Source of the DNA: Pseudoxanthomonas suwonensis 11-1
Lineage (GTDB): Bacteria; Pseudomonadota; Gammaproteobacteria; Xanthomonadales; Xanthomonadaceae
Length of the DNA stretch: 64,000 nucleotides
Reading direction: 5' to 3'
NCBI RefSeq assembly: GCF_000185965.1
Contig: NC_014924.1
Coordinates: 186,001-250,000, forward strand
The position numbers and the translations under genes are program-made. Positions within the stretch are counted from its first letter, which is position 1; every line of letters starts with the position of its first letter. Positions 55,813-60,617 of the stretch are shown here, in pieces. The notes under the pieces were generated by a model. That model was not told where the DNA came from, did not search any database, and worked only from the letters and a program-made list of their open reading frames with translations.

Positions 55813-57051
55813 CTACGCGGGTCGACGCAGGGTTCGTGCCGCGGAGATCGCCTGGACCCGTGCCCGGCGCAGCGCCTTGCCGATCTCGGTGCCGGTGAGG
55901 CCTTCGGCCAGGGCGAGGTCGCGCGCGTTCACCGCGGACGCGGCGGCATGCAGCCGGCACAGCTCCGGTCCCTGGGGATACTCGGCCTCCTCGCTGCCCA
56001 GGCGGCCGCGCTTGTCGGCCTCGCAGCACAGGGCTATGCGTGCGACCTGGCCGGGCTGGCGGAAGGCGTCGCAGCGTTCGAGCAGTTCGAGCACGGTCTG
56101 GTCGCGCAGTTCGGCCAGGCGGTGCACGTTGAGGTGCTCGCGGCATACCGCCTCGGCCAGCTTGCGGTGGGCGAGAGGCACGCGCAGGCGCTCGCACAGT
56201 CGTGCCAGCGGCTTGAGCCCGGCGCCCTCGTGGCCGATATGCCTCGGCAGCACGTGCGGCGGGGTCAGGGCCTTGCCCAGGTCGTGGGTGAGGGCGGCGA
56301 AGCCGACCAGGTCGTCGCCGGGCGCCAGCCGGGCGGCCATGTCGCTGACCATCTGCTGGTGGATGCCGGTGTCCACCTCGGGGTGGTACTCGGCCCGCTG
56401 CGGGACGCCGTACAGGGCGTCCACCTCGGGCAGCACCACGGCCAGGGCGCCGCACTCGCGCAGGGTGGCGAGGAAGGCCGAGGGGCGTGCCGAGGCCAGC
56501 GCCCTGCGCAGCTCCTGCCACACGCGCTCGGCAACCAGGGTCTCCAGCTCGCCGGCCTCTGCCATCTGCCGCATCAGCGCCATGGTTTCCGGGGCGACGC
56601 GGAAACCCAGCGGTGCGAACCGGGCCATGAACCGTGCCGCGCGCAGCACACGCAACGGATCCTCGGTGAAGGCGGGGCCCACATGGCGCAAGACGCGATC
56701 GCGGATGTCATCCATCCCGCCATGGGGATCGACCAGGGTGCCGTCGTCGCCGCGGGCGATCGCGTTGATGGTGAAGTCGCGGCGGAGCAGGTCCTCTTCC
56801 AGGGTCACCGAGGGGTCGGCATCGACCACGAAGCCGCGGTGGCCGCGGCCGCTCTTGCGCTCGGTGCGGGCGAGGGCGTGCTCCTCGCCGGTTTCCGGGT
56901 GCAGGAACACCGGGAAATCGCGGCCGACCGGACGGAAGCCGGCATCGAGCATCTGCTGCGCGGTGGCGCCGACCACGACCCAGTCGCGGTCGCCAGGCGG
57001 CAGGCCAAGCAGTTCATCGCGGACCGCGCCGCCAACCAGGTAGGTTTCCAT
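55813..57051 (-). CDS. cca: CCA-adding tRNA nucleotidyltransferase (bacterial HD-type)
   Basis: 412 residues; adds or repairs the 3' CCA of tRNAs. Nucleotidyltransferase head: [25 protein letters not shown] with the GGxVRD and DxD motifs (residues about 5-28), and [11 protein letters not shown]. The middle HD phosphohydrolase region is visible as [15 protein letters not shown], as in E. coli CCA. ATG at 57051 follows MET in the family. The 660-bp gene-free stretch with two structured elements and a CAG/CAA-rich tract lies upstream of the gene (57052-57712). Confidence 0.95.
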
Positions 57052-57111
57052 GCGCGCATCGTATCGCGATGGGCTCCGGCGGTTGGCTCCGCCGGACGTC
57101 GCGGGAACAGG

Positions 57112-57150
57112 GCAACAGCAGCGACAGCAACAGCAGGAGCAACAGCAAAA
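57112..57150. repeat. Degenerate CAACAG/CAGCAA tract
   Basis: Imperfect tandem of CAACAG and CAGCAA words (for example GCAACAGCAGCGACAGCAAC). It sits in the probable 5' leader or promoter of cca on the minus strand. Confidence 0.55.
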
Positions 57151-57181
57151 GGCGGGGTATGCGGGCTCCGGAGGGAGCCGC

Positions 57182-57281
57182 GGCAGCGCAGGGGCATGGC
57201 GCATCGCGCGACTCCGCGTCCTGCTCCAACGCGCGACCGCGGCACGTCCATGTGCCGCTTGCGCCATGCCCCTGCGCTGCC
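57182..57281 (+). repeat. Structured intergenic element, copy A
   Basis: Perfect 22-bp inverted arms at 57182-57203 and 57260-57281 (extendable outward by five more pairs after one mismatch). Inside are a conserved core (57204-57238, with TCGCGCG/CGCGCGA ends) and a hairpin GCGGCAC-GTCCAT-GTGCCGC (57239-57258). It predicts a three-way junction. Copy B is inverted 240 bp away. Confidence 0.75.
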
Positions 57282-57520
57282 ACGGCTTCGCTTGCGTTGG
57301 GTGCGAGGCTCCGGTAATGCCCTTCTCCCTACAGGAAGGGACGGGCGAGGGTCGGGGGTTCAGCAATGCTCGCGCGCCGACCTCTCCCCAACCCTCTCCC
57401 GTGGGGAGAGAGGCTCAAGCAGGCGGTCCGGCCTTTCCCTGGATTCAGGCTGGCCTATCCGGACTGCGCGCTTGTCGCCGCCACAGAAGCCCCGGGCTCA
57501 ACGCCGTCGAGGACGTCGTT

Positions 57521-57615
57521 CCACAGGGGTCTGGCGCAAGCAGGCCATGGATGGCCTGCGGTCGCGCGTTGGAGCCAGGGACGGCGGAGCCGCGCGATGC
57601 GCCTGCCCCCTGTGG
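57521..57615 (-). repeat. Structured intergenic element, copy B
   Basis: The plus strand resembles the reverse complement of copy A. Outer arms CCACAGGGG/CCCCTGTGG (57521-57529, 57607-57615) and GGCGCA/TGCGCC; internal hairpin GCAGGCCAT-GG-ATGGCCTGC (57540-57559). The core 57560-57597 agrees with copy A's core at most positions, while the stem sequences differ yet still pair. Confidence 0.75.
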
Positions 57616-57712
57616 GGCGGCGGCCCCGTCCGAAGCCAGCGCACCACGCTTGCCTCGCTTGCGCATGAAGCAGGCGCGCGGCCTGTCGCAGCTCCTGTGC
57701 TGGCTGTGGGCC

Positions 57713-59710
57713 CTAAGACGCCGGATCCGGGCAGGCGAAACCCTTGCGCTTGCCCTCGGTGCGGCCGAGCAGGCGCTCGCTGACCGGCAGGGCGTTGCCG
57801 TTGAGGCGCCAGTCGTAGATCACGCTGAAGGCCAGGACGCGGGCGATGTAGTCGCGGGTTTCCTTGTAGCTGACGGTCTCGATCCACAGGTCCGGATCGT
57901 GCGAGGGCCGCTGCGACAGCCAGCGCGCGGTCGGGGTCGGGCCGGCGTTGTAGGCGGCGATGGCCTGGTAGGTGGCGCCGTACTTGTCCTCCATCTCGCG
58001 CAGGTAGGCGCTGCCGAGGGCGATGTTGGTGGACGAGTCGTACAGGCTGTCGGCGCCGTCGTAGGGCAGGCCGGTACGGCGGGCGACGCCGGCGGCGGTG
58101 GTCGGCAGCAGCTGCATCAGGCCGCGGGCATTGGCCTGCGAGCGCGCCTTCGGGTTGAAGATGCTCTCGGCGCGGATCTCGGCGGCGATCCAGGCCGGAT
58201 CCAGGCCGTTGCGCTTCGCGGCGGCGCGGATGTCGGCATCGTGGTGCAGCGGGAAGCGCAGCTCGTACATGCGCTGCTCCTCCGGGATGCGCCCCAGCGA
58301 GAACACCGCGCGGTCGAACCAGCCATGGTCCTGCGCCAGGGCGACGGCGATGCGCCGGCGGGCGTCGTCGAAGCGGCCCAGGGCCTCGTTCCATTCCCGC
58401 GTGGCCCAGCTGGCCTGGTTGATGCGGTACAGCGACAGCGCGCGCACCAGCGCCGGATCGCGCGCCACCTCGGCGCGCATGCCAGGTTGCTCGGCCGGCT
58501 TCCACGGGCACAGCGCGTAGGGCTGGGCCAGGCGGTCGGCGGCGAGGAAGCCGTGGAAGGTTGGGCTGCGCGCGGCCTGGGCCATCAGCGTGCGGGCCTC
58601 GGCGGCCTTGCCGGTCTTCTCCAGCATGCGTGCCTCGAACCACTGCCAGCGCGAATCGCCGCGCTGCCTGGCAGGCATCAGCCGCAGCGCGGCCAGCGCC
58701 CCGGACCAGTCGCCGCGGGCCATGGCCTCGCGTACCCGCCACTCGTGCAGGCGCTCGTCGTAGGCCGAGGCCGGCACCGCGGCCAGGCGCCGTGCCGAAT
58801 CCGGCAGGTAGGAGGCCACGGTCCACAGCGCGACCTGGTACAGCACCTTGCCGCGCTCGGCCTCGCCCAGCTGCAGTGCCGGGCCCAGCTGCGCCAGCTG
58901 GCGCTCGGCCGCATCCGGATCGTTGCGCGCCAGCGCGGCAAGCCCGGCCGCGGCCACCTTGCGGCTGCGCGCGTCGCGCGGCCACTGCAGGGCTCGGCCG
59001 TGGGGCGCCTGCAGGAAGCCAACGTAGTCCTCGGCCAGCTTGCGCTCGGCCTCGGGCAGGCCGCGGGCGATGGCGCGCATCACCCCGGCCTGGCCGGCCT
59101 CGACCGCCAGGTCGAAGCGCTCCCAGCGCAGCGCGGTGTCCAGCCCGCCACGCTGCGACAGCGTGGTGAACACGGGGTCGCAGGCATCCGGCAGCGACTC
59201 GCCCTTGCGCCAGATCGCCTGCGCCTGGCTGTTCCAGTCCGGTCCGTGCCGGCCCAGCTCGTGCAGGGCGTTGAGGCGGGCGCAGCGCAGGCCCACGTCC
59301 TCGACCGGGCGCCAGTCGGCGAGCAGGTCGTTCCACTGCTTGCGCCGCGACAGCGAGGCCAGCCACAGCGGGCGCAGCGAGCTCGCCACCGCCTGGCCGT
59401 CGTAGCGCTGCAGGAAGGCGCGGACCTCGGCCCCATCCGCCTTGTCCAGGTCGCGGGCCAGGCGCGCGTACTCGATCCACGGCCAGCGCGGATCGGCGCG
59501 CAGCGCCGCGGTGGCGGCTACCGGCTCGCCGCGCTGGGCGGCGGCAATGGCAGCGGAGACCGCCGCATCCGTGGACGGATCGGGAACGGACTGGGCGTGC
59601 GCCTGGGTGCAGAACGCGGCCAGCGCCAACAGCAGCGGCGCCAGCCCGCGCGGTGCGCGGAGGCGGATGGACGGACGGTTCAAAGGGGGGATGGTGGGGG
59701 AGTGCAACAT
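57713..59710 (-). CDS. slt: Soluble lytic murein transglycosylase (Slt70-like)
   Basis: 665 residues. Signal peptide about 1-43 (LAPLLLALAAFCTQAHAQS). A long superhelical part of alpha-helical repeats leads to a C-terminal lysozyme-like domain: AEIRAESIFNPKARS contains the catalytic Glu, and GLMQLLPTTAAGVARRTG, then AIAAYNAGPTPTARW complete the SLT motifs. It cleaves glycan strands in the periplasm, releasing 1,6-anhydro-MurNAc, the substrate of the AnmK recycled elsewhere in the window. ATG at 59710 is MLHSPTIPPL; divergent from the TauE gene. Downstream end converges on the structured elements. Confidence 0.92.
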   Translation of the reverse strand: MLHSPTIPPLNRPSIRLRAPRGLAPLLLALAAFCTQAHAQSVPDPSTDAAVSAAIAAAQRGEPVAATAALRADPRWPWIEYARLARDLDKADGAEVRAFLQRYDGQAVASSLRPLWLASLSRRKQWNDLLADWRPVEDVGLRCARLNALHELGRHGPDWNSQAQAIWRKGESLPDACDPVFTTLSQRGGLDTALRWERFDLAVEAGQAGVMRAIARGLPEAERKLAEDYVGFLQAPHGRALQWPRDARSRKVAAAGLAALARNDPDAAERQLAQLGPALQLGEAERGKVLYQVALWTVASYLPDSARRLAAVPASAYDERLHEWRVREAMARGDWSGALAALRLMPARQRGDSRWQWFEARMLEKTGKAAEARTLMAQAARSPTFHGFLAADRLAQPYALCPWKPAEQPGMRAEVARDPALVRALSLYRINQASWATREWNEALGRFDDARRRIAVALAQDHGWFDRAVFSLGRIPEEQRMYELRFPLHHDADIRAAAKRNGLDPAWIAAEIRAESIFNPKARSQANARGLMQLLPTTAAGVARRTGLPYDGADSLYDSSTNIALGSAYLREMEDKYGATYQAIAAYNAGPTPTARWLSQRPSHDPDLWIETVSYKETRDYIARVLAFSVIYDWRLNGNALPVSERLLGRTEGKRKGFACPDPAS

Positions 59711-59800
59711 GCGCTCGAATATACGCAACGCGCCTGAATGGCCGTGACGAGGCGGCTGCGCGTTCGCGACCCGTCGTGCCACGGCCCGCGCACCCGCCGT

Positions 59801-59804
59801 GGAG
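59801..59804 (+). promoter_or_regulatory. Ribosome binding site that decides the TauE start
   Basis: GGAG, 6 nt before the GTG at 59811. The GTG at 59799 overlaps this site and is less likely. Confidence 0.5.
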
Positions 59805-59810
59805 CACGCC

Positions 59811-60617
59811 GTGTCGATCTGGATGTACCTGGGGTTCCCGTTGCTTGGCCTCGCCGCCGGCCTGCTTGCCGGCCTGCTCGGCATCGGCGGTGGCCTGGTG
59901 ATCATTGCCGCGCTGGCGTGGATGCTGCCGCTGTTCGGGGTCCCGCAGGAAGCGGCGATGCACGCCGCCCTTGCCAGCTCGCTGGCCAGCATCGTCCTGA
60001 CCGGCCTGTCCTCGGCGCGCTCGCATGCGAAGCGTGGCAGCGTGCTGTGGCCGACGGTGGCGTGGATGGTTCCGGGACTGCTGCTGGGCGGCTGGCTGGG
60101 CAGTGGCCTGGCGGTGGCGCTGGACGACACGGTGCTGCGCTGGGTGGTGGCGGTGTACTGCCTGGTGGCGGCGTGGCAGATCGGATTCGGCAGCACCCGC
60201 GCGCCGGCGGACGGCAGCGACGTGGCGCCGCCGCGCGGGTGGCCGATGACCGCGGCCGGTGGCGGCATCGGCGCGCTTTCCGCGGTGGTCGGCATCGGCG
60301 GCGGCAGCATGACCGTGCCGTTGCTGGTCTGGCGCGGCGTGCGCCCGGTACGCGCGGTCGGAACCTCCAGTGCCTGCGGCGTGGCGATCGCCATCGCCTC
60401 GGCGACCGGTTACGCGGTGCACGCGCCGCCGGGCGCGCTGCCCGAGCACGCCATCGGCTACGTTTACCTGCCGGCGGCGCTGGGCGTGGCCATGGCCTCG
60501 GTGCTGTCCGCGCCGCTGGGCACGCGCCTGGCCCATGCGATCAGCGGGCATGCGCTGCGGCGGGTGTTCGCGGTGTTCCTGCTGCTGGTGGGCGTGAGCG
60601 TGGCCCTGTCCGGCTGA
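59811..60617 (+). CDS. TauE/SafE-family sulfite/organic anion exporter
   Basis: 268 residues with eight membrane helices in two repeats. Each repeat carries the family glycine motif: GLLAGLLGIGGGLVIIAALA in the first and AVVGIGGGSMTVPLLVWRGV in the second. Members export sulfite, sulfoacetate or similar anions, or are of unknown substrate. GTG at 59811; GTG 59799 and ATG 59823 are alternatives. Divergent from slt with 100 bp between starts, and convergent with the DUF4124 pair. Confidence 0.88.
   Translation: MSIWMYLGFPLLGLAAGLLAGLLGIGGGLVIIAALAWMLPLFGVPQEAAMHAALASSLASIVLTGLSSARSHAKRGSVLWPTVAWMVPGLLLGGWLGSGLAVALDDTVLRWVVAVYCLVAAWQIGFGSTRAPADGSDVAPPRGWPMTAAGGGIGALSAVVGIGGGSMTVPLLVWRGVRPVRAVGTSSACGVAIAIASATGYAVHAPPGALPEHAIGYVYLPAALGVAMASVLSAPLGTRLAHAISGHALRRVFAVFLLLVGVSVALSG

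Follow-up and report, generated by a model that had tools for sequence, protein, structure and literature searches.

A family of branched palindromic repeats in Xanthomonadaceae, seen from two inverted copies between slt and cca of Pseudoxanthomonas suwonensis 11-1

Repetitive extragenic palindromes (REPs) are found in bacteria in assemblies such as REP doublets forming hairpins (REPINs) and bacterial interspersed mosaic elements (BIMEs). In a published account (PMC3733652) these are dispersed, intergenic palindromes of several types that occur mostly as oppositely oriented pairs, are especially frequent at gene ends and are nested in mosaics. Here we analyse a 64,000-nucleotide stretch of Pseudoxanthomonas suwonensis 11-1 (positions 186001-250000 of contig C1 in a single-contig genome of 3,419,049 bases; "the window" below), in which the gap between the genes slt and cca holds two inverted copies, A and B, of what we call the T element. 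T elements share all of these properties, but differ from the units of that account in measuring ~130 bp instead of 20-40 bp and in forming a three-way junction instead of one hairpin, and their outer stem is very variable. They constitute a real, widespread and apparently undescribed family of branched palindromes, whose many copies share a fold, vary in ways that keep the pairing, differ in insertion from species to species, form inverted pairs and favour gene 3' ends. We favour the view (rough probability 0.55) that A and B are members of a dispersed, non-autonomous, mobile family of palindromic DNA of the Xanthomonadaceae that is REPIN/BIME-like, most likely akin to REPINs and BIMEs in behaviour and not in shape.

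Two other groups in the same account come close in single respects (PMC3733652). For the CGTC-tagged REPs no dedicated transposase is known, and the T consensus has CGTC, a putative tag, just 3' of its outer stem, as do many copies (CGTC or CGGC in most copies of alignment A3); these REPs differ in their single-hairpin stems of 8-9 bp and occur mainly in alpha-Proteobacteria. The TIRYT families of terminal inverted repeats (TIRs) in Stenotrophomonas maltophilia, a related bacterium, are similarly long, partly self-complementary and dimeric, but as described they flank transposase genes, and such flanking was not found for T elements. A printed description of the T family was not found in the open-licence literature searched, and the window gave 0 Rfam matches at gathering score. 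Matches to miRNA models below gathering score in 56500-58200 were set aside as artefacts of long hairpins.

Fold and spread of the T element

Copy A (57163-57291, plus strand; contig 243163-243291, 134.8 bits with the covariance model introduced below) and copy B (57507-57638, minus strand; contig 243507-243638, 124.9 bits) share a fold in which a long outer stem closes a three-way junction with two hairpins, H1 and H2. As placed from fold and letters, the outer stem of copy A is formed by 57182-57203 and 57260-57281, enclosing H1 (57204-57236) and H2 (57239-57258), and that of copy B by 57521-57538 and 57598-57615, enclosing H2 (57540-57559) and H1 (57562-57597). Fold z-scores on the two strands were -9.99 and -9.54 for A and -4.04 and -3.57 for B, and on neither strand did any shuffle fold as well. 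The longer arms of copy A (57176-57203 and 57260-57287) are 96% complementary to each other, while between A and B, compared as inverted copies, complementarity is 73% in a stretch of 93 nt and 77% in one of 66 nt. A first-pass annotation of this DNA had reported two inverted structured copies between cca and slt, and had read their H2 stems as GCGGCAC..GTGCCGC in A and GCAGGCCAT..ATGGCCTGC in B; the location and the letters both proved right. The copies also face each other as it said, at a measured distance of 215 bp and not the 240 bp it gave. Absent from it were the three-way junction, the larger nested composite and the one-strand GGA loops described below.

That the differences between copies preserve pairing, as the first-pass annotation had claimed from A and B, is borne out by 35 distinct aligned copies. 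Standard pairs occupy 96.5% of the cells of this alignment, and pair-keeping double changes occur in 27 of 44 pairs and 223 cells, compared with 18.3 pairs and 62.5 cells in shuffles, of which 0 of 500 reached the observed count. Kinship can push copies above shuffles without any structure, but a control that slides the partner by 1-3 columns retains the relatedness, and with it pairing falls to 33-48%. Copies inspected from 13 other genera have the same layout with different outer-stem letters. With 129 model positions and two hairpins on its junction, the T element is not the single palindrome of 20-40 bp expected of a REP.

The spread of the family was followed with a covariance model, R1, built from 35 copies. 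Its E-values are approximate, and true copies read on the opposite strand score up to ~45 bits, so that matches near the limit are less sure. Within the P. suwonensis genome, blastn with copy A returned 12 long matches, each covering 82-101 of the 101 query bases at E <= 2.3e-15, and R1 at E <= 0.1 returned 25 matches at 17 distinct places, 8 of the matches being opposite-strand readings. The genus search (E <= 0.001, at most 150 candidates scored per genome, some copies counted on both strands) likewise found 17 copies there, as 22 matches, and found matches in 15 of the 17 genomes of the genus, with 0 to 144 per genome. With blastn and copy A, 13 of 41 related genomes matched, all of them within these 17 (at most 21 candidates scored per genome). 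The first-pass annotation had proposed a covariance search of the family for further copies, and such copies exist: at E <= 1e-6, R1 matched 70 of the 297 genomes of the family, spread over 16 of its 54 genera, and a repeat search of 38 chosen positives recovered 37 at 1e-7. No T element was matched in the plasmids and phages searched.

Gene ends, composites and insertion differences

T elements are present in high copy number, lie mostly between genes and are mostly arranged as facing pairs within larger nested composites. Among 29 pairs of neighbours no more than 800 bp apart in the 8-kb loci, 23 face inward, and just 6 of the 67 clusters show overlap with a predicted gene. Setting aside these six and five clusters without a usable neighbour on both sides, the remaining 56 occupy 32 convergent, 20 tandem and 4 divergent gaps, compared with 39, 154 and 53 among 246 background gaps; convergent gaps are thus enriched (Fisher p = 1e-9) and divergent gaps depleted (p = 0.013). 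The REP/BIME-type affinity suggested by the first-pass annotation fits this dispersed, mostly intergenic distribution of inverted pairs at gene 3' ends. Single copies in tandem gaps of the Pseudoxanthomonas 8-kb loci are sense in 12 cases and antisense in 1, the sense strand being throughout the one opposite to the strand with the GGA loops.

The composite is seen in one genome, G011, whose 16 loci comprise 7 convergent, 4 tandem sense and 4 tandem antisense placements and 1 overlapping a predicted gene. Thirteen of these loci share a repeat unit of ~560-800 bp, with a T element at its left end and an inverted T element at its right end; the two bound the unit and may correspond to the terminal inverted repeats of a miniature inverted-repeat transposable element. 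The unit encloses a C-rich hairpin and a REP doublet and is flanked by hexamer arrays. In the window the arrangement is the same, with triplex-motif-like sequence inside. The hexamer arrays, of GCAACA type, are oppositely oriented at the two ends of composites, outside the T elements.

Insertion differences were seen in two comparisons. Among 16 genomes in which both slt and cca were found, only that of P. suwonensis has both copies in the gap; in G003 there is a fragment, in G016 the gap contains a run of N, and 13 genomes show no match. In the comparison of strains J47 and J35, where the slt locus is 93% identical, 14 sites of J47 include one without any J35 match (844 bp against 93 bp) and three with fragments only.

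At the locus itself, both flanking genes lie on the minus strand: cca at 55813-57051 (Pfam PolyA_pol and HD) and slt at 57713-60394 (Pfam SLT and SLT_L). Our gene caller, a home-made GC3 rule, overextends starts, and cca as it calls it continues into copy A. At the front of copy A (57164-57179, plus strand) is a small hairpin, GGCTCC-GGAG-GGAGCC, that is kept among copies, and outside copy A a degenerate GCAACA-type hexamer array (57111-57150, plus strand) is recognisable from the letters, as it is beside many other copies. The spacer between A and B (57292-57506, no strand assigned) contains palindromes. One of its segments, 57380-57414 on the minus strand, fits the published consensus of the triplex motif TMECO (PMC4666352) with 3 substitutions, and is a neighbour within the composite, not part of the T element; 57320-57358 (plus strand) is possibly, by eye, a second, degenerate palindrome of this kind.

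Six of the 30 genomes searched for RNase P RNA (L397, L415, L392, L391, L395 and L406) also have T elements close to that gene. RNase P RNA matches span 403-706 bases in seven of the 30 (L403, L409, L412, L413, L414, L415 and L416) against ~350-385 elsewhere, and these long matches are presumably insertions or expanded helices. Insertion of T elements into this gene, suspected from the variable lengths, was rejected, as no model match fell inside the gene span and the clear matches in the six loci lie nearby.

Level of the structure and GGA loops on one strand

The covariation between A and B had been taken in the first-pass annotation as a sign of selection on RNA or cruciform structure. We counted G.U cells per double Watson-Crick change with one script, using RNase P RNA from these bacteria as the control (30 sequences, of which the 7 longer ones were dropped, leaving 23). 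RNase P RNA gives a ratio of 0.377, T elements 0.109 (genus copies) and 0.046 (other genera); per double change, G.U pairs are thus scarcer in T elements by a factor of 3.5 to 8. In 8 orthologous J47/J35 copies, changes in paired positions were one-sided and broken in 10 cases, one-sided with G.U in 4 and two-sided in 4, 3 of the latter within one block switch, and orthologous copies have exchanged blocks of H1 or the hairpin head as a whole. This pattern suggests that pairing is restored by exchange or within the lineage that spreads, and not repaired copy by copy. Together, the few G.U pairs and the mostly one-sided changes point to a shape that is kept at the DNA level: the RNA half of the earlier interpretation is doubtful, and DNA-level structure is indicated. 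The transversion share of double changes (0.59 and 0.75, against 0.64 in RNase P RNA) was uninformative as a discriminator. In several J47/J35 copies (L058, L070, L073, L083, L084, L085, L086, L090 and L093) part of the T element is replaced by a repeat beginning CGCGCCGGGAATG.

If single-stranded template DNA is involved, a polarity with respect to replication would be expected. In G011, GC skew is negative in 10 of 10 windows of the first half and positive in 8 of 10 of the second; from this and coding strand bias the origin is placed close to 1.95 Mb. Eighteen of 22 listed A-type copies are oriented against the fork (p = 0.004), and two further A-type copies in sampled windows agree; the figure becomes 22 of 26 (p = 0.0005) if two windows with B-type copies only are read as composites.

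RsmY, RsmZ and CsrB are small RNAs that sequester RsmA/CsrA. T elements have a feature reminiscent of such RNAs, several GGA in hairpin loops, and they have it on one strand only. Left out of the count were copies containing N, incomplete copies and, from alignment A4, eight rows of which one is a poor match and seven are opposite-strand readings. On the antisense strand GGA stands in 262 of 281 core hairpin loops from 136 unique genus copies and in 100 of 107 from 52 further copies, as opposed to 0 of 275 and 0 of 107 on the sense strand, and two GGA loops are present in 127 of 135 and 49 of 51 copies having at least two loops. The H2 loops of the genus set read ATGGAT (129), AGGGAT (19), AAGGAT (3), ACGGAT (2) and AAGGCT (1), the variation falling mainly on the N of ANGGA; H1 loops read C-AGGA-C-G, CATGGACG, CAGGGACG and similar, while their stems change. 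In copy A, H2 reads GCGGCACATGGACGTGCCGC on the minus strand, where the H1 loops show three GGA; in copy B, H2 reads GCAGGCCATGGATGGCCTGC on the plus strand, where the H1 loops show GGA.

The published RsmA consensus is ACARGGAUG, with ACARGGAUGU as the high-affinity ligand (PMC3937308). RsmU of Xanthomonas (PMC7694677) is an RsmA-binding RNA with GGA motifs in hairpin loops, and binding in vitro persisted when all four were altered. RNAs of this type are single expressed genes, whereas T elements are dispersed repeats, known here from DNA alone. CsrA was found in 19 of 19 genomes tested, two of which (G009 and G010) have no T match. The GGA loops are a strong lead and not a test, because the copies share descent.

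Readings of the T element

According to the mobile DNA reading that we prefer, the branched shape would matter as single-stranded DNA, for example in the template at the replication fork, where some enzyme would recognise or copy the hairpin. Copies that keep the shape would spread and, once inserted, would decay nearly neutrally, any effect on the host being a side effect at gene ends. Y1 (RAYT-type, REP-associated tyrosine transposase) enzymes seem an unlikely mover. In 43 Y1-transposase loci (25 from the genus, 18 from other genomes) we found no clear T element and no gene flanked by T elements, a further difference from REPINs mobilised by a cognate transposase within copies of the same repeat. 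R1 matches at these loci were weak (best 23.9 bits in the genus, 30.1 bits in other genomes), 9 of the 15 weak matches were folded and gave REP-like or other hairpins, none branched in this way, and 8 of the 24 genomes with T elements lack any Y1 match. RAYT and TIRYT movers were rejected on these weak matches. That A and B are the TIRs of a Y1-transposase element (TIRtron) that lost its gene, by analogy with S. maltophilia (PMC3733652), is highly improbable on the same grounds, the comparison being with the published TIRs as described. An autonomous transposon between two T elements was considered for a 2.6-kb gap in L339, and rejected, as the gap presumably holds a fumarase gene and no transposase. 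Two Y1 genes have other repeats at their sides: classic GTAG-type REPs in G011 (L125, 1099-1201, 1916-2018 and 2097-2201), and in G013 (L128) a 125-nt inverted repeat, 87% identical, without an R1 match.

The Y1 results weigh against mobility as well as against this class of mover, and several other points tell against our preferred reading. A clean target duplication or exact end was not established in the few sites compared (the slt-cca gap and J47/J35), the polarity concerns one genome and 22 of at least 144 matches, and the G.U deficit rests on one control RNA. The loop letters are more conserved than a pure requirement for shape needs. A purely DNA view is opposed by the folding of the GGA strand, the more stable of the two in 41 of 43 copies from other genera and in 24 of 35 from the genus, and wobbles favour this strand by 36 to 21 in other genera, with 16 to 16 in the genus. 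The 12:1 sense bias of tandem singles in the Pseudoxanthomonas loci could also be explained by an RNA role; in G011 the proportion is 4:4.

A rival reading is that of an RsmA/CsrA-binding RNA. An antisense transcript would be a two-hairpin RNA with GGA loops, acting as a sponge or placing neighbouring transcripts under RsmA control, and in a facing pair any read-through transcript would carry one copy in the GGA orientation. The strictly strand-specific loops, their variation at the N of ANGGA, their agreement with the RsmA consensus and their persistence between genera whose stems and outer arms differ completely all favour this possibility, as do the presence of CsrA in every genome tested and the better folding and, in other genera, the wobble bias of the GGA strand. 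Yet the loops are not independent, RsmA is present also in the two genomes without a T match, tandem singles put UCC and not GGA into the transcript of the upstream gene, and G.U pairs are few and compensation in place is lacking; we regard the possibility as unlikely. A combined form, in which mobile branched palindromes double as an RsmA/CsrA sponge through the two ANGGA/AGGA hairpins on one strand of each copy, is the boldest reading and appears unlikely. The opposite strand could instead act as RNA structure at gene 3' ends, as a terminator or a protector of mRNA ends like some roles proposed for REPs, and the enrichment in convergent gaps, the depletion in divergent ones and the sense bias of tandem singles would suit it. 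Such placement follows equally, however, if insertions elsewhere are harmful; most relatives lack a T element at the same gene end (slt-cca), G.U pairs are few and the tandem copies of G011 are evenly split, making this role quite unlikely. Very unlikely, in our opinion, are functionless quasi-palindromes without a dedicated mover, kept perfect by template switching or conversion and spread by recombination. The swapped H1 blocks and hairpin heads, the chimeric copies and the double changes nearly free of G.U would be expected of them, but blind correction between arms does not explain why loops and branched layout are kept over many genera despite changed outer stems.

If the mobile DNA reading is right, a branched class with hypervariable stems would be added to the known small palindromic repeats. 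It would also offer a natural experiment on what keeps palindromes perfect: structure in DNA, RNA, or the copying of one arm from the other. With GGA in the loops of one strand only, there is a simple and cheap way to ask whether such repeats act as decoys for a global regulator. Were this so, dozens to more than 100 copies per genome would shift the free pool of RsmA/CsrA, coupling selfish DNA with post-transcriptional regulation.
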